A stretch of 28,497 bases of DNA from a virus. Location: the IMG/VR virus record IMGVR_UViG_3300006162_000042, positions 1 through 28,497 of that record; one strand, written 5' to 3'. Position numbers and translations under genes: made by a program. The notes below the pieces were generated by a model. That model was not told the DNA's origin. It ran no database searches and saw only the letters and a program-made list of their open reading frames with translations. Each line of letters begins with the position of its first letter. Positions within the stretch are counted from its first letter, which is position 1. This document shows positions 11,422 to 24,897 of the stretch, piece after piece.

Positions 11422-11639
11422 ATGAACTAATTGAAAAGTATTCCAAACAATGTTCGATTAAAACATATAATGCGTTTGGTTACTTAATTGAATTTGGTTT
11501 TAATGAACAAAAATTCGCCGAATTAATGGTTCAGCAATTCAAAAACATTGTTAAGGATGTTTACTTGAAGTCAAAACCAGAACATCGTTCCTGCTTACTT
11601 GAATTGGATGCAGTTTTAGATGAAACTTTCGGAGTTTAA
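11418..11639 (+). CDS. Divergent FAELIV-HFGVE family protein
   Basis: A 73-residue copy with MNELIEKYSKQ at the start, QKFAELMVQQF core lacking the usual ECAE, and truncated end ETFGV. It is translated from the GGAG in the preceding HFGVEE codons. The DNA after FGV (CGGAGTTTAACAATG) still serves as the ribosome-binding site for 11642. Confidence 0.82.
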   Translation: MNELIEKYSKQCSIKTYNAFGYLIEFGFNEQKFAELMVQQFKNIVKDVYLKSKPEHRSCLLELDAVLDETFGV

Positions 11640-11641
11640 CA

Positions 11642-11884
11642 ATGAACGAAAAATTTAATGATGAACTGTATTCTTCTGGTTTGTTATCTCAAGGTTGTTG
11701 GGACAAACTAGATGTGTATGATCAAAATGCGATTGAAACTTTCGGAACTTTGTTGGTGGAAAAATGTATCAAAGCGGTACTAGATACAGTGCCGCAACAT
11801 TGCTATACCACCTTTGATTTGTCGTATAGCAACAGTATTAAAGCGGATTGTATTGACAAGATCAAGGAAAGTGTGTTATCATAA
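11642..11884 (+). CDS. Highly divergent FAELIV-HFGVE family protein
   Basis: An 80-residue protein with MNEKFNDEL start and ETFGTLLVEKCIKAVLD in the core position (compare KFAELIVKECAKIV). It has IDKIKESVLS at the end and no HFGVE tail. The downstream gene correspondingly has its own separate ribosome-binding site (AAAGGA). It looks like an eroded family copy. Confidence 0.7.
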   Translation: MNEKFNDELYSSGLLSQGCWDKLDVYDQNAIETFGTLLVEKCIKAVLDTVPQHCYTTFDLSYSNSIKADCIDKIKESVLS

Positions 11885-12163: not shown

Positions 12164-12474
12164 ACAAACAAATCCGAAAACTTGCTGAACAGGCCACTTC
12201 AACTCTCTCAGTGAACCATGAAGGTTACAGGGGTAGTAAAGGCTACACAGAACAAGTAAAATATTTCGACAAAGAAAAGTTCGCCGAGTTGATTGTCAAG
12301 GAATGTGGTGAACTGGTAAAAGCAAGACTAAATCATATTCCCGACGATCAATACGATTGGGTTGGTTATAATTACGGAGAAACTGCCGTTGTATATGGCC
12401 TATTAGACACATTCCAAGAACACTTTGGGGTTGACTGCGACCCGAAGAATTCTAAATTCGGAATTGCAAAATGA
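12160..12474 (+). CDS. FAELIV-HFGVE family protein with C-terminal extension
   Basis: A 104-residue member, the longest copy. It starts MNKQIRKLAEQAT, has core KEKFAELIVKECGELVK and a longer variable region, then EHFGVD followed by 13 extra residues (CDPKNSKFGIAK at the end). The extension ends FGIAK and its DNA overlaps the next ATG, so the stop has moved past the family end. Confidence 0.85.
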   Translation: MNKQIRKLAEQATSTLSVNHEGYRGSKGYTEQVKYFDKEKFAELIVKECGELVKARLNHIPDDQYDWVGYNYGETAVVYGLLDTFQEHFGVDCDPKNSKFGIAK

Positions 12475-12719
12475 ACGAACGAATTCAAGAACTTCGTAGT
12501 CAGGCAGAAGGATCTGCGTTGCAAATTCCTGCGTCATTAAAGCCACACGAGTTTAATGAAATTTTTGACGAAATCTTCGCCGAGTTGATTGTTAGGGAAT
12601 GTGCCGAAGTTTGTAAACGGCAACAATACTATGATGCCGATGATGAACATAAGCGTGGAGTAAATTCTGGTTCGTATACTTGTATGAACGCAATCAAAAA
12701 ACATTTTGGAGTTGAATGA
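12471..12719 (+). CDS. FAELIV-HFGVE family protein
   Basis: An 82-residue canonical member: MNERIQELRSQAE, core EIFAELIVRECAEVCK and end AIKKHFGVE. The ATGA overlaps the 12160 stop. Here the upstream bases lack the usual GGAG (a TTCGGAATTG lies there instead). Its own tail carries the GGAG for the next gene. Confidence 0.87.
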   Translation: MNERIQELRSQAEGSALQIPASLKPHEFNEIFDEIFAELIVRECAEVCKRQQYYDADDEHKRGVNSGSYTCMNAIKKHFGVE

Positions 12720-12946
12720 TGACAAGACGAATGAAAGAACCCTTTCACACACTGATATGGAAAGCCAGTATCGGATATAATGATAGCTGGAGTCAAGTTG
12801 ATCCAGAAGTATTGGAAAAGTTCGCCGAGTTGATTGTCAAGGAATGTGCTAAGATTGTAGAGGACAGCACATGGAACCTTCCGCATGGATATAAGGCAGT
12901 GGATCAGGCTAACTTGGTTAAGAAACATTTCGGAGTTGAAGAATGA
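12719..12946 (+). CDS. FAELIV-HFGVE family protein with altered N-terminus
   Basis: A 75-residue member with start MTRRMKEPFHTLIWKAS in place of MNERIK, core EKFAELIVKECAKIVED and end LVKKHFGVEE. Adjacent ATGs at 12716 and 12719 are both possible; the second is better spaced from GGAG. Its tail directs translation of an unrelated membrane protein at 12943. Confidence 0.85.
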   Translation: MTRRMKEPFHTLIWKASIGYNDSWSQVDPEVLEKFAELIVKECAKIVEDSTWNLPHGYKAVDQANLVKKHFGVEE

Positions 12947-13137
12947 GATTAAAAATTAGTCCAGGCTGGTGGATAGTATACTGTGGCATCATTAATGTTT
13001 GTGTCGGTGCATTCAATACTTACTATCAATGGTTCCCAATGGAACGTCAATCAGAAGTATTTTGTATCGTCTTATCATTACCGTTATGGATTCCCCCTAT
13101 CGGAAAGTGGGTCGGTGTAAGATCGTTTTGGAGTTAA
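12943..13137 (+). CDS. Small two-helix membrane protein
   Basis: A 64-residue protein with hydrophobic helices at about residues 9-25 and 38-57 and several tryptophans. It starts within the stop of the preceding family gene (ATGA) using that gene's GGAG. Its own last codons form TTTTGGAGTTAAG, which resembles the family tail DNA and lies ahead of the 13147 ATG. Inner-membrane location inferred, role unknown. Confidence 0.72.
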   Translation: MRLKISPGWWIVYCGIINVCVGAFNTYYQWFPMERQSEVFCIVLSLPLWIPPIGKWVGVRSFWS

Positions 13138-13146
13138 GTAACGAAA

Positions 13147-13314
13147 ATGATACGAGTCATTCCCAGATATGAAGATCACTTGTGGTATCCCATACTGATT
13201 AAAGCAGGTGGTGGACACATCATTCGTGAAATGCAGGGGCGAAGCGTAAATGAGTGGAACGATATGGTAAGAAAGCAATGGGAACAGGATGGAGAATATG
13301 AACGAACGAATTAA
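13147..13314 (+). CDS. Small hypothetical protein overlapping a family gene
   Basis: A 55-residue protein (MIRVIPRYEDHLWYPILIKA start, RSVNEWNDMVRKQWEQDGEY near the end). It overlaps the start of the 13298 gene by 17 bases in another frame, so its last residues (YERTN) come from the MNERIK codons. The GGAG in the preceding gene's end is about 13 bases upstream, which is far. Moderately likely to be real. Confidence 0.58.
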   Translation: MIRVIPRYEDHLWYPILIKAGGGHIIREMQGRSVNEWNDMVRKQWEQDGEYERTN

Positions 13315-13522
13315 ACAAATCATTGATATCTGTGGATTATATTTGCCACCAGATAATCCCGAAGTGCTTGAAAAAGAACTAGAGTTTTTTGCAGAGTCGA
13401 TTGTCAAAAAATGCGCCGAAATTGCCAAGAATGAACAAGCATTTAATGCTCGATACACAGATGAAAAAATGCATCTACAGGTTAAAATTGACCAATGTAT
13501 CCTAATAGAATTCGGTCTATAA
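13298..13522 (+). CDS. FAELIV-HFGVE family protein cut short by an in-frame stop
   Basis: A 74-residue member: MNERIKQIIDI, core LEFFAESIVKKCAEIAK, end ILIEFGL. The next codon is TAA (13520-13522), and the codons directly after it, in the same frame, spell HFGVEE and a TGA. The family tail has therefore been removed from the protein by a stop, yet its DNA is intact. The ATG at 13298 matches the family; an in-frame ATG at 13289 would add MEN. Confidence 0.86.
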   Translation: MNERIKQIIDICGLYLPPDNPEVLEKELEFFAESIVKKCAEIAKNEQAFNARYTDEKMHLQVKIDQCILIEFGL

Positions 13523-13543
13523 CATTTCGGAGTTGAAGAATGA
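13523..13543 (+). promoter_or_regulatory. Orphan HFGVEE coding segment acting as ribosome-binding site
   Basis: The 21 bases read HFGVEE plus TGA in the frame of the 13298 gene, but lie after its stop. They contain GGAG (13529-13532) eight minus one bases from the 13540 ATG, which overlaps the TGA as ATGA. Since the segment is no longer translated as a family tail, its preservation points to a role in initiating the 13540 gene. Confidence 0.7.
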
Positions 13544-13827
13544 ATACAATGGATGAAACCAACAGAGCAATGCTCAACACAATGTTACATCGTGGTGTTG
13601 TTACTGTTATTTTTCTAAAAAAAGATGGCTCTGAACGTGTTATGAATTGTACACTTAGTAAGCAACATTTGCCAGCGTACAACCCATCTTCTTCAAATAC
13701 CGCTTGCTCTCCTAGTAAGCCACATGAACCAAATGTAGAATCATTGCGTGTGTATGATATCGATGAGGAAGATTGGCGTTCATTCCGCTATGATTCAGTT
13801 AAACAAATGTCTCTAATTTTAGGATAA
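13540..13827 (+). CDS. SH3-like beta-barrel phage protein (WYL_2/DUF2693 type)
   Basis: A 95-residue protein. GVVTVIFLKKDGSERVMNCT, a central serine/asparagine-rich insert and VYDIDEEDWRSFRYDSVKQM near the end match the small Sm-like SH3 barrel family known as DUF2693/WYL_2, which occurs in T4-like and other large phages. The family is thought to be a ligand- or nucleic-acid-binding barrel, with no proven role. It starts from the orphan GGAG segment at 13523-13543; ATG 13549 is a possible alternative. Confidence 0.85.
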   Translation: MNTMDETNRAMLNTMLHRGVVTVIFLKKDGSERVMNCTLSKQHLPAYNPSSSNTACSPSKPHEPNVESLRVYDIDEEDWRSFRYDSVKQMSLILG

Positions 13828-13830
13828 AAA

Positions 13831-13965
13831 ATGAAAAAACCTGTTGACATGATCCCAATTCTGATGTACAATCTTATTTTGATTGTCGGAACCGCCTATC
13901 TGGTCTTTTACAAGGATGTATCTGGTTGGCTATTCCTATTAACTTTGTGTTTCATGTGGTCTTGA
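13831..13965 (+). CDS. Small membrane protein
   Basis: A 44-residue protein with two hydrophobic helices (about residues 8-26 and 31-43) joined by a YKDVSG turn. AGGA at 13821-13824 lies six bases upstream. It heads a three-gene envelope cluster with 13977 and 14612. Function unknown. Confidence 0.65.
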   Translation: MKKPVDMIPILMYNLILIVGTAYLVFYKDVSGWLFLLTLCFMWS

Positions 13966-13976
13966 AAGGAATTTAT

Positions 13977-14615
13977 ATGAAAAAGTTGACAGTATTCTTG
14001 GTAGGATTGATGCTTTGCTTCAGTGTATTTGCCAAACCCGGTAGTTTTTCTTCAGGTTCTCGCGGTGGTTCTAGTTCGCATAGTCGAGGTAGTTTTTCTT
14101 CAGCACCAGCATCACGGCCATCACCATCAATTGCTCCTTCACGGACGGTAACTACTACCACAACCACACGCAGCTACTCTTCTCATGTGCGTACTGGTGG
14201 AATGTATGGTGGCTATGGTTATGGATATCATTATAACAATGGTCTATTGACAGGCATGATCATTGGTGGTATGATGCACCCATATGGAACTATGATGTAT
14301 ATGGGGCCTGGGATGTATTACAACAATGCTTTTCTTTATCCTAATGGTCAGGTGGTAAACTCACAAGGAATTGTTGTTGGTATGTATGTTAATGGAATGT
14401 TTACTCCGGTGAATAATGGCACAATGGTTGCTCAACCGGTTCCTGCTGATGCATATGAACAAAATCAAGCACAAATGCAGCCACAAGCACAGCAACAAGC
14501 ACCCACACCAGTGATTATTCAAAATAATTCAAACGATTATAAGGAAATTATTACGATGTGTGTTTTAATTTTTGCTATTTTAATTGTTCTTTTTATTTTT
14601 GTGAGTGCAGTATGA
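13977..14615 (+). CDS. Exported low-complexity protein with C-terminal membrane anchor
   Basis: A 212-residue protein. A signal peptide (MKKLTVFLVGLMLCFSVFA, cleavage after VFA) is followed by a Ser/Gly/Arg region, a Ser/Pro/Thr stretch with a run of threonines, and a Gly/Tyr/Met-rich centre (GGMYGGYGYGYHYNNG). A Gln/Ala/Pro linker and a hydrophobic helix at about 189-211 complete it. It would cross the inner membrane and place the repetitive part in the periplasm. AAAGGA at 13965-13970 is six bases upstream. Bacterial proteins of similar composition exist, so it may be host-derived. Function unknown. Confidence 0.83.
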   Translation: MKKLTVFLVGLMLCFSVFAKPGSFSSGSRGGSSSHSRGSFSSAPASRPSPSIAPSRTVTTTTTTRSYSSHVRTGGMYGGYGYGYHYNNGLLTGMIIGGMMHPYGTMMYMGPGMYYNNAFLYPNGQVVNSQGIVVGMYVNGMFTPVNNGTMVAQPVPADAYEQNQAQMQPQAQQQAPTPVIIQNNSNDYKEIITMCVLIFAILIVLFIFVSAV

Positions 14616-15031: not shown

Positions 15032-15901
15032 ATGAAAACATTTAAACCAACTTATCTTTACGTTAAAACCCACAATGTCACAGGGTTAAAATACTTCGGC
15101 AAAACAACCTCAAATCGTAAGCGATATCGTGGTTCTGGTCATTATTGGATTCGTCATATAAACAAACACGGATATGATGTTACTACTGAAATAGTAGGAT
15201 ATTTCACGGAACAAGATAAATGTGTAAAATTCGCCACTGAATTTTCAATATCAAACAACATCGTTGAATCAAAAGAATGGGCTAATGAGAGGATAGAAAA
15301 TGGATTAGATGGCGGCGATACTACATCCAGCAAATCAAAAGAAGACAAATACATTATTGCCAACAAACGAAAAGAAACAATTTCACGAAAGTCATCAGAA
15401 GAACTCGCTGAAATAAACAGAAAAAATAGCGATGGTGTGAAACAATATATCAAAGAAAATCCAAAAATTAGACAAGCCGCCACAGAAAAAATAGTAGAAT
15501 CTAGAAGAAACAACGGCAAACCGTGGCATAGTGAAGAAACTAGAAAAAACATAGGCAAAAATAGTAAATCCGGAACAGACGAAGTTCGACAACAAATATC
15601 CAAAACACTTACTGGTAGAAAAAATCCAGAACACAGTAAAAGAATGTCCCAGAAAACTGGACTATTAAATAAAAATACAAGAGTATTTGAAGTAATCAAT
15701 CCTAATGGTGAATCATTAATGATCATAGGGTGTGAAGCATTAGCAATTTTCTGTAAAGACAACAAGTTGGCATATGAGCAGTTTACTAGACACGTAAACG
15801 CCGGAAAAATTGAGAAGATTTTGGCTAAAAGACCTAGACCGGAAATGCGAAATTGTTTGGATTATGAGATAAAAGAAATTGGTAAAAAAAAAAACACTTG
15901 A
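15032..15901 (+). CDS. GIY-YIG homing endonuclease (Seg-like)
   Basis: A 289-residue protein. The N-terminal GIY-YIG domain shows TYLYVKTHNVTGLKYFGKTT (YLY and YFG are the variant GIY and YIG elements) followed by RYRGSGHYW with the conserved arginine and a GHYW element. A charged linker contains helix-forming modules, including RQQISKTLTGRKNPEHSKRM, typical of NUMOD3 DNA-binding repeats. A C-terminal NPNGESLMIIGCEALAIFC segment resembles NUMOD1. It cuts DNA to spread its own gene. It is free-standing, with no intron recognised, and lacks a clear ribosome-binding site. Its TGA overlaps the next promoter's -35 box. Confidence 0.9.
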   Translation: MKTFKPTYLYVKTHNVTGLKYFGKTTSNRKRYRGSGHYWIRHINKHGYDVTTEIVGYFTEQDKCVKFATEFSISNNIVESKEWANERIENGLDGGDTTSSKSKEDKYIIANKRKETISRKSSEELAEINRKNSDGVKQYIKENPKIRQAATEKIVESRRNNGKPWHSEETRKNIGKNSKSGTDEVRQQISKTLTGRKNPEHSKRMSQKTGLLNKNTRVFEVINPNGESLMIIGCEALAIFCKDNKLAYEQFTRHVNAGKIEKILAKRPRPEMRNCLDYEIKEIGKKKNT

Positions 15902-15991: not shown

Positions 15992-17011
15992 ATGACTAAA
16001 AAATACGACACGCTTGTTTTTATTCTCCGTGGACAACCATTCCACAATGCACACTTGGAAATAGTTCATCGAGCCACCGCACTCTGTGATAATCTAATTA
16101 TCGTTGTAGGTTCAGCAAACCAACCCCGTACATACAAAAACCCTTTCACTTTCGATGATCGCCGCCAAATGATTTGGGAAGCAACTCGTGGTTTGAGTTT
16201 GAACATCCACATCGACTCCAATATTGACACGATTTATAACGATCAAGCATGGGCGGCTAGAGTTCAACATATTGTTTCGAAATACAATATCGACGGCGGC
16301 AAAGTTGGTATTATTGGTCACAAGAAAGACGAATCTTCATTTTATCTCGCAATGTTTCCGCAGTGGCATCTTGAAGAAGTTCCGTTGTTCGAACCTCTTG
16401 ACGCTACTAATATCCGCGACCTATATTTCCGACGCAACGCTAATATGAACTTTATTAAGTCTGTGGTTCCTCCTACCACGTTCCAATGGCTTACTTTGTT
16501 TAAAGAATCTTCGGAATATCAACAACTCATTAATGAACGTGAACACATTGAGGCATATAAGAAACAGTATGCATCGTTGCCATATCCACCTATCTTTGTT
16601 ACTTCCGATGCGATTGTTGTTCAGTCGGGCCATGTACTAATGATTAAGCGCCGTTCAGAGCCAGGAAAAGGCTTGATGGCTCTTCCGGGTGGATTTGTGA
16701 ATGCAAACACCGACAATAGCGTACAGGATGCGGCCATCCGTGAGCTAAAAGAAGAAACTGGTATCAAGGTACCAGTTCCGGCATTAATCGGTAATATCAG
16801 GGCAACCAAGGTATTTGATGCGATCAATCGTTCCGCTCGTGGTCGTACTATTACTCATGCGTTCCATATCCAACTTCCTGATGGCCCACTGCCAAAAGTA
16901 AAAGGTTCTGATGATGCCGAAAAGGCAGTTTGGATTCCTATTGGTGAATTGAATTCTTCGGAGATTTTCGAAGATCATTTTGAAATTATTTCTTATTTTT
17001 TGGGTATTTAA
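15992..17011 (+). CDS. nadM: Bifunctional NMN adenylyltransferase / Nudix hydrolase
   Basis: A 339-residue two-domain enzyme. The N-terminal domain carries the nucleotidyltransferase HxxH signature (HNAH, residues 18-21, in RGQPFHNAHLEI) and the ATNIRDLYF motif near 138-146; it should make NAD+ from NMN and ATP. The C-terminal Nudix domain (from about 200) has PGGFVN at 232-237 and RELKEETGI at 250-258, expected to hydrolyse ADP-ribose or a related nucleotide. The first glutamate of the canonical Nudix box (GX5E) is not at its expected place: residue 242 is asparagine after a two-residue longer loop. AGGA at 15981 is seven bases upstream. It pairs with nadV at 17531 as the NAD+ salvage route. 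Confidence 0.95.
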   Translation: MTKKYDTLVFILRGQPFHNAHLEIVHRATALCDNLIIVVGSANQPRTYKNPFTFDDRRQMIWEATRGLSLNIHIDSNIDTIYNDQAWAARVQHIVSKYNIDGGKVGIIGHKKDESSFYLAMFPQWHLEEVPLFEPLDATNIRDLYFRRNANMNFIKSVVPPTTFQWLTLFKESSEYQQLINEREHIEAYKKQYASLPYPPIFVTSDAIVVQSGHVLMIKRRSEPGKGLMALPGGFVNANTDNSVQDAAIRELKEETGIKVPVPALIGNIRATKVFDAINRSARGRTITHAFHIQLPDGPLPKVKGSDDAEKAVWIPIGELNSSEIFEDHFEIISYFLGI

Positions 17012-17476
17012 ATGATTAAAGTCGATGGAAATTTATTTGATCTGGCCGAGAATGGCGAATTTGATGTTGTCATTCATGGTTGTAATTGTTTTAATACAAT
17101 GGGTGGTGGTATTGCACGAGAAGTCCGTGAACGATATCCAGAAGCATTTGCTGCTGATGCCAAAACTATGTACGGCGATTACAATAAACTTGGAAATTAT
17201 ACCGAATGTACTGCCGGTGAAAAAACTCGCTTTACTATTCTAAACTGCTATACTCAATATAGCACGAGTCGTGGTTATGATGTATTCGAATATCTTGCAT
17301 TTGAGATGGTATTGAAGAAGATTATTCATCATTATGGCCATCTTCGTATCGGAATGCCATACATTGGTATGGGTCTTGCCGGTGGTGATCCTCAAAGAGT
17401 TCTTGCTATTATGGCTGGATTTGCTATAATGGTGGAACAAAAGGGTGGAAGTGTGACGTTAGTTCGTTTCGCTTAA
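17012..17476 (+). CDS. Macro-domain protein (ADP-ribose-1''-phosphate phosphatase-like)
   Basis: A 154-residue single macro domain. The ADP-ribose-binding loops are clear: GCNCFNTMGGGIAREV at about residues 23-38 and PYIGMGLAGGD at 116-126. Macro domains bind or hydrolyse ADP-ribose derivatives, including ADP-ribose-1''-phosphate and ADP-ribosylated proteins or nucleic acids. The ATG directly follows the nadM stop. Its position between the two NAD+ genes suggests removal or recycling of ADP-ribose species made when NAD+ is attacked. Confidence 0.93.
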   Translation: MIKVDGNLFDLAENGEFDVVIHGCNCFNTMGGGIAREVRERYPEAFAADAKTMYGDYNKLGNYTECTAGEKTRFTILNCYTQYSTSRGYDVFEYLAFEMVLKKIIHHYGHLRIGMPYIGMGLAGGDPQRVLAIMAGFAIMVEQKGGSVTLVRFA

Positions 17477-17512
17477 CAAAAAGTCCTAGCGATAGACGCA
17501 AGGCAATTTAAC

Positions 17513-17529
17513 TTTAAAGGAGCTTTAAA
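17513..17529 (+). promoter_or_regulatory. Inverted repeat over the nadV ribosome-binding site
   Basis: TTTAAAG (17513-17519) is complementary to CTTTAAA (17523-17529) with GAG between. The hairpin would include the AAAGGAG Shine-Dalgarno (17516-17522) and reach two bases from the ATG. It is AT-rich with a three-base loop, so stability is low, but it could tune nadV translation. Confidence 0.45.
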
Positions 17530-17530
17530 A

Positions 17531-18928
17531 ATGAAATTCGCAAACTCAATCTTACTTAACACAGATTCGTATAAAGTCGGAATGGACAAAATGTATCCTC
17601 CCGGTACTCAATATGTTTATTCTTATATCGAATCTCGTGGTGATCAATACGATGAAACCCTGTTTTTTGGTCTCCAGGCATTCATGAAAGAATACTTGAC
17701 CAAACCTATTACTCAGGAAGAAATTGATTACGCAGCCGAAGTCTGGGCGGCTCATGGTGAACCATTTAATCGTGAAGGATGGGAATACATCCTGAAAGAA
17801 CATAATGGTTATTTGCCAATCGAAATTCGTGCGGTGGAAGAAGGATTGGTCATTCCTTGCAAGAATGTATTGGCTACCATTCAAAACACGGATAAAATGG
17901 TTCCTTGGCTGACCACTTGGATTGAAACTTCGTTGCTTCGTGCAATTTGGTATCCTACCACAGTGGCTACTCAATCATGGAACATCAAACAAATCATTAA
18001 ACAATATTTGGAGAAATCTGGTGACCCCACTACTATCGGTTTTAAATTACACGACTTTGGCGCTCGCGGTGTTAGTAGCCTTGAAAGTGCAGGAATCGGC
18101 GGCGCGAGCCACTTGGTCAACTTCATGGGGACGGACACTATTACTGGTGTTCTGTTTGCTCGTGAGTATTACAACGCTGACATCGCTGGGTTTTCAATTC
18201 CCGCTTCTGAACATAGCGTAATTACAAGCTGGGGTCGTTCCGGCGAAGCCGATGCATATGCTAATATGATTGACCAATTTGGCAAACCCGGAACTATCTT
18301 TGCTTGTGTTTCTGATAGTTATGATATCTATGAAGCCTGTCGCATGTGGAGTACCGGCACATTGAAACATAAGGTTATCGATTCTGGTGCAACTGTTGTG
18401 ATTCGTCCAGACTCAGGTGATCCAATCGAAGTGTTGCCAAAGATGATTCAGATTCTTTCCGAAGGCTTTGGTTATACCAAGAACGACAAGGGATATAAAG
18501 TATTGAACAATGTGCGTATTATTTGGGGTGATGGCATCAATCAACTGTCTATCCAATCTATTCTGCGTACAATGGTTGATATGTTTGGTTGGAGTGCTGA
18601 CAATTTTGCATTTGGTATGGGTGGTGCATTGCTTCAAATCGTGAACCGCGATACCTATAAATTTGCTTTGAAGTGCTCTGCTATGTGCCGTCGTGTTGAT
18701 ACTGGTTTGCTTGGTAAAGAAGAATGGATCGATGTTTACAAAGATCCAATTACGGATAGTGGTAAAAAATCTAAGAAGGGTTTGGTTACCTTGATGAAGA
18801 ATTCCGATGGCAAATATTACTCTGGTGTTGCCGATTGGACTAAGAGTGAACTTGATCTGGTGTTCCAAAACGGTGTTGTAATTAAGACACTAACCTTCGA
18901 TCAGATTCGCCAAAATTCTGAAAAGTAA
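17531..18928 (+). CDS. nadV: Nicotinamide phosphoribosyltransferase
   Basis: A 465-residue enzyme making NMN from nicotinamide and PRPP, the committed salvage step; length is typical for the family. Recognisable blocks are YSYIESRGDQYDE (about 30-42), KLHDFGARGVSSLESAG (172-188), GFSIPASEHS with the catalytic histidine at 228, SDSYDIYEACRMW (261-273), and VIRPDSGDP with R292 and D294 matching substrate-binding residues of human NAMPT. Later blocks are IWGDGINQLSIQ and FGMGGALLQ. AAAGGAG at 17516-17522 is eight bases upstream. With the 15992 enzyme it gives a complete nicotinamide-to-NAD+ path. Confidence 0.97.
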   Translation: MKFANSILLNTDSYKVGMDKMYPPGTQYVYSYIESRGDQYDETLFFGLQAFMKEYLTKPITQEEIDYAAEVWAAHGEPFNREGWEYILKEHNGYLPIEIRAVEEGLVIPCKNVLATIQNTDKMVPWLTTWIETSLLRAIWYPTTVATQSWNIKQIIKQYLEKSGDPTTIGFKLHDFGARGVSSLESAGIGGASHLVNFMGTDTITGVLFAREYYNADIAGFSIPASEHSVITSWGRSGEADAYANMIDQFGKPGTIFACVSDSYDIYEACRMWSTGTLKHKVIDSGATVVIRPDSGDPIEVLPKMIQILSEGFGYTKNDKGYKVLNNVRIIWGDGINQLSIQSILRTMVDMFGWSADNFAFGMGGALLQIVNRDTYKFALKCSAMCRRVDTGLLGKEEWIDVYKDPITDSGKKSKKGLVTLMKNSDGKYYSGVADWTKSELDLVFQNGVVIKTLTFDQIRQNSEK

Positions 18929-20601: not shown

Positions 20602-20810
20602 TGATAGTATCTAATCTAAGATATGAAACTGACCCAACAACATTCGAACAAAATGCCATTGTTGATGTAAAAATAGCTAGAATGACATTATACGAAATGA
20701 ATCTTCTCGGAGAAGATATACGGAATGACATATTGATGACTCTCGGTCAAGAATTCTTTGAACAAGTACAAGAACTACAAATACAAAGGATAAAGAATGA
20801 AAGTAAGTGA
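20601..20810 (+). CDS. Hypothetical protein
   Basis: A 69-residue protein with one strand-like start (MIVSNLRYETDPTTFEQNAI) and a long helix (LGQEFFEQVQELQIQRI). Start 20601 is chosen over 20598 by distance from the family-tail GGAG (20590-20593). It overlaps the 20797 gene by 14 bases. No recognised domain. Confidence 0.68.
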   Translation: MIVSNLRYETDPTTFEQNAIVDVKIARMTLYEMNLLGEDIRNDILMTLGQEFFEQVQELQIQRIKNESK

Positions 20811-21108
20811 ACTTAAACAAATCTTGGAACACACCCGTGATGATAGTGAGGTTATGATTGCTATTAAACTGCCCTATTCCACAGTGGGTGCCATTCCAAT
20901 GGTTGCCGTTAAAAGTGCTATGAATGGCTTTGATTGGGAGAATGGAAAGTTTATTCTACACCCCGAAGAAAAACTAACCAACTTTGATGAAGATTTTGCC
21001 AAGAAAATGAAAGACATGCAAGACAAATGGGGTTGGTCTGAGTATGAGAATCGTGGGCTCAAGGCAGAAATTAAGAAATTAAAGAAACTGTTGAAGGTCG
21101 AAGATTAA
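20797..21108 (+). CDS. Conserved phage hypothetical protein
   Basis: A 103-residue protein: KVSELKQILEHTRDDSEVMI at the start, a central GFDWENGKFILHPEEKLT, and a lysine-rich coiled-coil-like helix at the end. The start (a short helix followed by a D-S/A-E-V strand) is common in small phage proteins. AAAGGA at 20785-20790 is six bases upstream. Function unknown. Confidence 0.8.
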   Translation: MKVSELKQILEHTRDDSEVMIAIKLPYSTVGAIPMVAVKSAMNGFDWENGKFILHPEEKLTNFDEDFAKKMKDMQDKWGWSEYENRGLKAEIKKLKKLLKVED

Positions 21109-21174: not shown

Positions 21175-21396
21175 ATGAACGAGCGAATTAAAATTCTACT
21201 AGAATCGTGTATTAATAAAGAAATGACCGACAAGCCTTGGCCATTAGTTGACAATGAAAAGTTCGCCGAGTTGATTGTCTATGAATGTATTAATGCTGTG
21301 ATTGATGGTACCAAAGAAGGTGACAATTATGCTATGCGAATTGAACAGCATTTTGATAATGGACAAGGCGGTATACTACATTTTGGAATTGAATGA
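21175..21396 (+). CDS. FAELIV-HFGVE family protein
   Basis: A 73-residue member: MNERIKILLESCI, core EKFAELIVYECINAVID, end GILHFGIE. It has no close upstream gene: 66 bases of A-rich DNA separate it from 21108, with AGGA ten bases before the ATG. Its tail reads TTTTGGAATTGAATG, a GGAA variant, before the 21396 gene. Confidence 0.86.
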   Translation: MNERIKILLESCINKEMTDKPWPLVDNEKFAELIVYECINAVIDGTKEGDNYAMRIEQHFDNGQGGILHFGIE

Positions 21397-24023: not shown

Positions 24024-24350
24024 ATGTTTAAAGAAATCTCAGCATTGGTTGGTGTTATTGTAGGTGCTATCGCACTGGTGTTTGGTCTTAGTTTTCTAGG
24101 CTACAAAAGCTATGAATTCTTTGCACCAAAGTATCGTCAAGTAGATAATCAAGTGTTCAAAGAAAGTGAACAGTACAATACTGGTATGAAAATTGATTTT
24201 GATAATTTGATGTTACAATATCAAACAACAACAGATGAAGCACAAAAGTCTTCTATCAAAGCAATTATTATCCATAGATTTGCTGCTTATGATACTGATA
24301 AACTCAATTCAGATCAGCGTCAGTTTTATTATCAGTTGAAACGTCAATAA
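24024..24350 (+). CDS. Membrane-anchored conserved phage protein
   Basis: A 108-residue protein with one N-terminal membrane helix (about residues 7-28) and a helical soluble domain (ESEQYNTGMKIDFDNLMLQY, IIHRFAAYDTDKLNSDQRQF). The pattern of a helix, then YNxGM and HRF(A/S)xY, recurs in phages. Its last 47 bases overlap the - strand homing endonuclease gene. AGGA at 24014-24017 is six bases upstream. Confidence 0.82.
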   Translation: MFKEISALVGVIVGAIALVFGLSFLGYKSYEFFAPKYRQVDNQVFKESEQYNTGMKIDFDNLMLQYQTTTDEAQKSSIKAIIIHRFAAYDTDKLNSDQRQFYYQLKRQ

Positions 24351-24897
24351 ATTTACAATTGGAAAAGTGCCAACGTTTCATCATTGGACCTTTTCCCTCT
24401 TTTCCGCAATGTGGACATATGTGTTGTTCTATAATATGACAAGGTTCTTTATTTTTTATCTTTTTAGAAAGTGGATTTGAATTACCAAGAAAGTTATGAG
24501 TTCCATTTTTGACACGAGACCTTGCTAATTGTGAGGATTGTTCACTTGAAAAATTATGAGTTCCACTTTCAATTTTCTTCTTTTCTCTGTTTGAATGGAA
24601 TTCAAAATCAAGAAAATTATGAGTTCCGTTCTTTAAACGTTTTTGTTGTGCTTTACTGGAACATTCAGACAATTCAATAGGAGTTAATTGCATTCGAATG
24701 GCCATAGCCATACATTCAGCCCAATCACGTTGAAGATAATGAATTGCATAATGTTTTTTAATTGAAACACACATCAAATTCTCGATATTGTTGTTAGATC
24801 GGTTACCGTCTATGTGATGTATCTCATAACTTCTTCCATCTTCATCTTTTGGTATTGCGCCAAAATGTTGTTCGTAAATCCTGCGATAAATACTCAT
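24304..24897 (-). CDS. HNH homing endonuclease
   Basis: A 197-residue protein, the only - strand gene. The HNH core is YEIHHIDGNRSNNNIENLM with a following KKHYAIH (about residues 24-53). Three spaced copies of GTHNF at 91-95, 112-116 and 132-136 form a repeat region likely to contact DNA. A C-terminal zinc motif follows: CPHC (161-164) with H177 and C181. GGGAG lies eight bases before the ATG on the - strand. It sits between the 24024 gene and the 24981 promoter and is convergent with 24024, a pattern of late insertion. The last 15 or so residues overlap 24024 coding DNA. Confidence 0.92.
   Translation of the reverse strand: MSIYRRIYEQHFGAIPKDEDGRSYEIHHIDGNRSNNNIENLMCVSIKKHYAIHYLQRDWAECMAMAIRMQLTPIELSECSSKAQQKRLKNGTHNFLDFEFHSNREKKKIESGTHNFSSEQSSQLARSRVKNGTHNFLGNSNPLSKKIKNKEPCHIIEQHICPHCGKEGKGPMMKRWHFSNCKFIDVSTDNKTDADLN

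Follow-up and report, generated by a model that had tools for sequence, protein, structure and literature searches.

An intact, untranslated copy of a protein-tail sequence as the likely ribosome-binding site of the next gene in a viral array of small genes

In the viral DNA considered here, a gene for a small protein ends at a TAA codon beyond which the same reading frame spells HFGVEE and TGA, the tail of the very family to which the protein belongs, and the question arises why this tail stands intact behind a stop codon and directly before the next start. The preliminary description proposed that a paralogue had lost its tail to an in-frame stop while the tail DNA was kept as the ribosome-binding site (RBS) of the following gene. 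The window, that is, the whole stretch of DNA analysed, is a complete virus record of 28,497 bases, and the features on which the question turns are the following.

11625..11644, plus strand: second moved stop in the window, with ...TFGV-TAA inside the box GGAGTTTAACAATG; the spacing of 7 is kept and the next gene is at 11642
12716..12946, plus strand: paralogue with an identical box (12926-12946), translated as the HFGVEE tail and overlapping the next ATG
13147..13314, plus strand: gene upstream of the 13298 gene, whose final codons, ERTN-TAA, lie within ATGAACGAACGAATTAA, the start of the 13298 gene
13298..13522, plus strand: 74-aa protein of the MNERIK...FAELIVRECAE...HFGVEE family of small proteins, with the C-terminus ...ILIEFGL-TAA (from sequence and alignment)
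13508..13522, plus strand: the 13298 gene's own diverged tail, EFGL plus TAA, in which GGAG is now GGTC (A1 alignment)
13523..13543, plus strand: HFGVEE box CATTTCGGAGTTGAAGAATGA, intact and untranslated, identical to 12926-12946
13529..13532, plus strand: GGAG Shine-Dalgarno (SD) core, 7 nt before the ATG at 13540
13540..13827, plus strand: 95-aa WYL_2 protein (Sm-like SH3 barrel), with the box as its presumed RBS (PF10902, phrog_1086)
21175..21396, plus strand: paralogue with an in-frame double tail, HFDNGQGGIL-HFGIE

The 3' end of the 13298 reading frame is ATA GAA TTC GGT CTA TAA, with the TAA at 13520-13522, past which the frame runs on as CAT TTC GGA GTT GAA GAA TGA (13523-13543), and the ATG at 13540-13542 overlaps this TGA. 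The preliminary description had placed the stop, the HFGVEE and TGA in the same frame and the overlapping ATG exactly to the base, and it was also right that GGAG and its spacing are intact, the 7-nt spacer running from 13529-13532 to the ATG. The 13298 protein has the hallmarks of the family (MNERIKQI, FAESIVKKC and EFGL in the A1 and A2 alignments), and the 13540 product matches PF10902 in Pfam (E=7.5e-12) and phrog_1086 in PHROG (E=7.1e-21). Folding of the RNA at the junction gave -19.1 kcal/mol (z -1.83) with the GGA of the SD in a loop, a result that is unconvincing.

The box, whose 20 bases usually encode the six C-terminal residues of family proteins in uncultured phages, is a repeat, with 10 matches in the window at up to three mismatches against 0.00 expected from shuffled sequences, and stretches of viral contigs with an exact copy number at least 120. 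The family members tested had no match in Pfam or PHROG, and a tblastn search of 50,697 records of named phages returned no family match; among bacterial genome assemblies only six family loci occur, all of them in metagenome-assembled genomes. The only match to a solved structure was weak (E=0.06) and was disregarded. In the literature searched, HFGVEE appears in no paper, and the search on boundary sequences and PeSL gave nothing useful.

The reading preferred here, to which a probability of about 0.7 is given, is that the box is dual-use DNA and that its second, untranslated copy at 13298-13543 by itself serves the WYL_2 gene as RBS. In the usual case, the box would encode the C-terminus of a small accessory protein of the phage while also supplying GGAG-(7 nt)-ATG to the next gene, whose start overlaps the stop (ATGA); in these canonical members, the ribosome would translate through GGAG and terminate on the overlapping start, so that termination-reinitiation would be favoured. 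At the 13298 locus, the upstream gene would end at the decayed EFGL-TAA with the intact second box untranslated behind it, and 13540 would be initiated de novo on the GGAG of the box. Ribosomes are thus predicted to initiate at this box, and 13540 is probably translated independently of 13298, the two genes being uncoupled, because 17 nt separate the stop from the start and a stop-to-start distance of about 20 nt almost abolished coupling in the experiments described in the relevant passages of a published study (Huber et al. 2023, PMC10666635).

The role of the box in initiation can be followed across the family, for which the comparison set comprised 548 non-redundant members (about 550). 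The canonical overlap of stop and start (ATGA) is found in 392 of the 548, and in 59 of them the stop comes one codon earlier, in the variant GGAGTTGAATGATG, where it is a second ATG that stands 7 nt from GGAG. Of the 472 recognisable tails, 429 have a start codon at precisely 7 nt past the GGAG position; GGAG itself occurs in 402 of those 429 tails (94%) versus 9 of the 18 tails without a nearby start (Fisher p=1.5e-6). The Gly codon of tails followed by ATG is GGA in 414 of 430 cases (96%) versus 26% in gene bodies, and at loci chosen without reference to the box the corresponding figures are 219/224 and 28%. The Phe codon of the tail varies freely between TTC and TTT, and the first and second bases of the Phe, Gly, and Val codons are 94-100% conserved (98.7% for Phe, positions 4-5); the box is therefore conserved as protein too, which implies that selection on the RBS would not be the sole force and that the tail is under both constraints.

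It is well supported by these sequence comparisons that the bases of the HFGVEE tail, and not only its amino acids, are conserved as the RBS of the next gene. The earlier suggestion of selection on the bases for initiation consequently stands at the level of the family, where the spacing of 7, the GGA bias, the loss of GGAG without a following start, and the displaced intact boxes speak for it; it does not stand on the single box at 13298, which is identical to its twin at all 21 bases. Since these intact bases include six (CATTTC) that no RBS needs, the event at 13298 is probably recent, and a box so recent and so complete shows by itself no purifying selection.

Reading frames were counted for 424 boxes with up to two mismatches, of which 347 share the frame of a family gene, eight are in the +1 frame (TFRS*) and two in the +2 frame; one box, that of the 13298 locus, is untranslated behind a family gene, and the remainder stand behind other or no long frames. 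Intact boxes read in a wrong frame give TFRS* or ISELKN, and those in the +2 frame belong to L213 and to L222 with its duplicate L221. All 11 displaced family boxes are perfect, which is partly a selection effect because many loci were fetched by an exact-box search. The box would persist as DNA when the upstream frame changes because RBS function is independent of the reading frame. In L214, an intact untranslated box lies between a non-family gene, which has already terminated, and a family gene. The body of the gene can also be missing: at L134:7766-7807, a 13-codon mini-gene, MNEQIKQHFGVEE, consists of the family start and, immediately after it, the tail box, and L135 carries a full family gene at the same place, followed by a next gene 99.5% identical over 200 nt; in an exact search, L134 was the one contig that matched the mini-gene.

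The family genes of L018, L063, L071, L044, L003, and L094 are frameshifted just before a perfect box, which is read as TFRS*, and several of these frameshifts resemble one-base gains in A-rich stretches. In L111 and L154 the box or its start region is in the +2 frame (...ELKNERTN*), and foreign genes gain in this way a C-terminus that extends into the next family start.

The copy behind the 13298 gene does not appear to be the tail of that gene. EFGL aligns on the HFGV column of the family (A1 alignment with 14 relatives, over few residues), and Glu at the position of the tail His is found also in the 7509 gene of the window (QEFGIDF) and in L006 (EEFGIKE). The junction probably consists of two tandem tails, a translated and decayed EFGL and an untranslated and intact HFGVEE, and the untranslated box would be an additional copy and not a severed tail, because the 13298 gene still has its own EFGL. 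Double tails occur elsewhere in several frames. The box follows HFEVD in the +2 frame and intact in L213, HWDID in the +1 frame in L029, HFDN...GIL in the +1 frame in L212, and HFGID plus an extension in the +2 frame in L221/L222; in-frame double tails are found in the subfamily of the 21175 gene of the window (L132, L195, L134, L070; HFDN...HFG[IV]E) and in the 12160/L135 pair. In particular, L212 holds an orthologue of the 21175 gene whose outer box, displaced by a single base, reads TFRS*. In these double tails, GGAG is gone from the inner tail, and ahead of the ATG the outer box retains GGAG or GGAA. Such a mixture of frames is expected from joining at the DNA level but not from nonsense mutation alone.

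The proposal that the tail was lost to an in-frame stop is not borne out by these data, in that a degenerate tail of the gene's own sits right before the TAA, the outer boxes of other double tails are in some cases in frame and in others not, and about 20 other contigs hold distant homologues of the 13540 gene (WYL_2) with no box in front (tblastn, fetched loci). As regards the conservation of the stop among relatives, suggested earlier as a check, the nearest relative, L001 (48% identity), is without the stop and its tail is translated as HWSIEE. A pattern scan of viral contigs for orthologues of the 13540 gene confirmed none. Homologues of the 13147 gene in L034 and L186 have different ends and no family gene directly behind them; both neighbours of the 13298 gene thus exist elsewhere without a member of the family, which supports a joint at this place.

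Most likely, judging from the arrangement of the genes, a recombination joint placed the WYL_2 gene behind a ready-made RBS, and we infer that the box arrived with this joint, through short homology at the box or its flanks, and not by nonsense mutation. Unrelated upstream and near-identical downstream genes meet at the box in L134/L135, L151/L175, and L212/window; in the last case the box of L212 precedes a gene 98% identical over its first 200 nt to the 20797 gene of the window, which is without a box. A first count of unrelated upstream sequences (22/27 pairs with a box versus 66/197 without) was too generous, and with matched close gene pairs, clustered, the figures are 8/12 versus 11/29 gene clusters (p=0.17), a trend only. 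Recombination is suggested rather than demonstrated, because the enrichment of joints at the box is not significant with matched controls.

A history by nonsense mutation, in which the ancestral gene ran through ...EFGL-x-HFGVEE without a change of frame and a point mutation turned x into TAA, leaving the tail DNA as only an RBS, is economical at the 13298 locus, where the box and the gene share a frame with no indel and one substitution would be enough, and the in-frame double tails of the 21175 subfamily and of the 12160/L135 pair are precedents for such an ancestor. No relative with EFGL-x-HFGVEE was found, however, the nearest (L001) having a single tail, and a joint is indicated by homologues of the two neighbouring genes that lack the box; moreover, in none of the three other viral contigs with a stop directly before an intact box is that stop a nonsense codon in the frame of a family gene. 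This history is considered unlikely. The probability is lower still for the view that the box is conserved mainly as a functional protein tail, GGAG being incidental and the untranslated copy a recent accident in decay: the conserved codons for Phe, Gly, and Val, the large majority of boxes in frame, and the identity of the 13298 box with its twin at 12926-12946, which indicates a recent origin, agree with it, but it leaves unexplained the 96-98% of GGA versus 26-28% in gene bodies, the fixed 7-nt spacing, the loss of GGAG where no start follows, and the intact wrong-frame boxes of several independent genes.

The TAA could finally be an error of sequencing or assembly in a metagenomic contig, with the protein continuing into HFGVEE. 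The locus is known from a single contig, no second assembly of it having been found in the viral contigs; this contig has no sign of error, the frame before the stop is intact, and untranslated or out-of-frame boxes are present in other contigs, some of them in pairs from separate assemblies (L018/L063, L221/L222). Such an error is the least probable of these explanations, and the tandem EFGL-HFGVEE arrangement would remain even if the TAA were a single-base assembly error.

Among known systems, termination-reinitiation coupling at ATGA overlaps is the closest to the canonical members, which have a 4-nt overlap and an SD in the last codons of the upstream gene; the relevant passages of Huber et al. 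2019 (PMC6728339) report that SD motifs precede most overlapping downstream starts and that reinitiation was reduced without an SD in four of five E. coli pairs. The 13298 locus resembles this type of coupling in the SD at a suitable spacing from 13540, which is inside the coding region in canonical members and here behind the stop, and differs from it in that the stop ends at 13522 and the ATG is at 13540, so that there is a 17-nt gap in place of the overlap. The relevant passages of the two studies (PMC6728339, PMC10666635) mention no tail sequence that is nearly fixed throughout a family and persists out of frame.

Within 12400-14000 the plus strand showed no terminator-like site, and a scan for sigma-70-type promoters gave no promoter-like site inside the box. 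T4-type phages carry mobile regulatory cassettes, short repeats between accessory genes that offer homology for the shuffling of modules; those cassettes are early promoters with stem-loops between genes, whereas the HFGVEE repeat is a coding tail with an RBS. The cassettes were reportedly described by Arbiol et al. in 2010 (Genome Biol Evol 2:140), a study cited in PMC4177764. In lambdoid phages, short conserved boundary or linker sequences at gene borders have been proposed as recombination joints, from which the box differs in having a defined dual role and in recurring many times within one genome.

A wider and more tentative reading, possible though held with less confidence than its contrary, is that the box is a portable gene-joining element, which would combine a protein tail, an RBS for any next gene, and a short homology for the joining of accessory genes. 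If it is true, arrays of small genes can grow and be reshuffled, any newly joined gene being translatable at once, and the protein tail encoded by the box would in some cases be dispensable. SD motifs inside upstream genes are already well known, and we know of no precedent for a portable box of this kind, the underlying principle being known already. The natural variants of the box (in frame, out of frame, untranslated, and with the gene body deleted) make selection on the protein and on the RBS separable, and they also allow testing how arrays of phage accessory genes gain genes without losing expression. In particular, the published experiments on stop-codon distance in translational coupling have a natural counterpart in the 13298/13540 pair.

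As to the other genes of the window, 20797-21108 corresponds to L212:3059-3374 on the minus strand (96% over 316 nt); the window copy is preceded by unrelated sequence, and the order of this gene relative to the 21175 gene is reversed between the window and L212. Two proteins, encoded at 15032-15901 and at 24304-24897 (minus strand), look like GIY-YIG and HNH homing endonucleases, which we take them putatively to be. The region 15992-18928 contains putative NAD salvage genes, for a nicotinamide-nucleotide adenylyltransferase/Nudix-like and a nicotinamide phosphoribosyltransferase-like protein, which resemble those of the Synechococcus phages B23 and BUCT-ZZ01.
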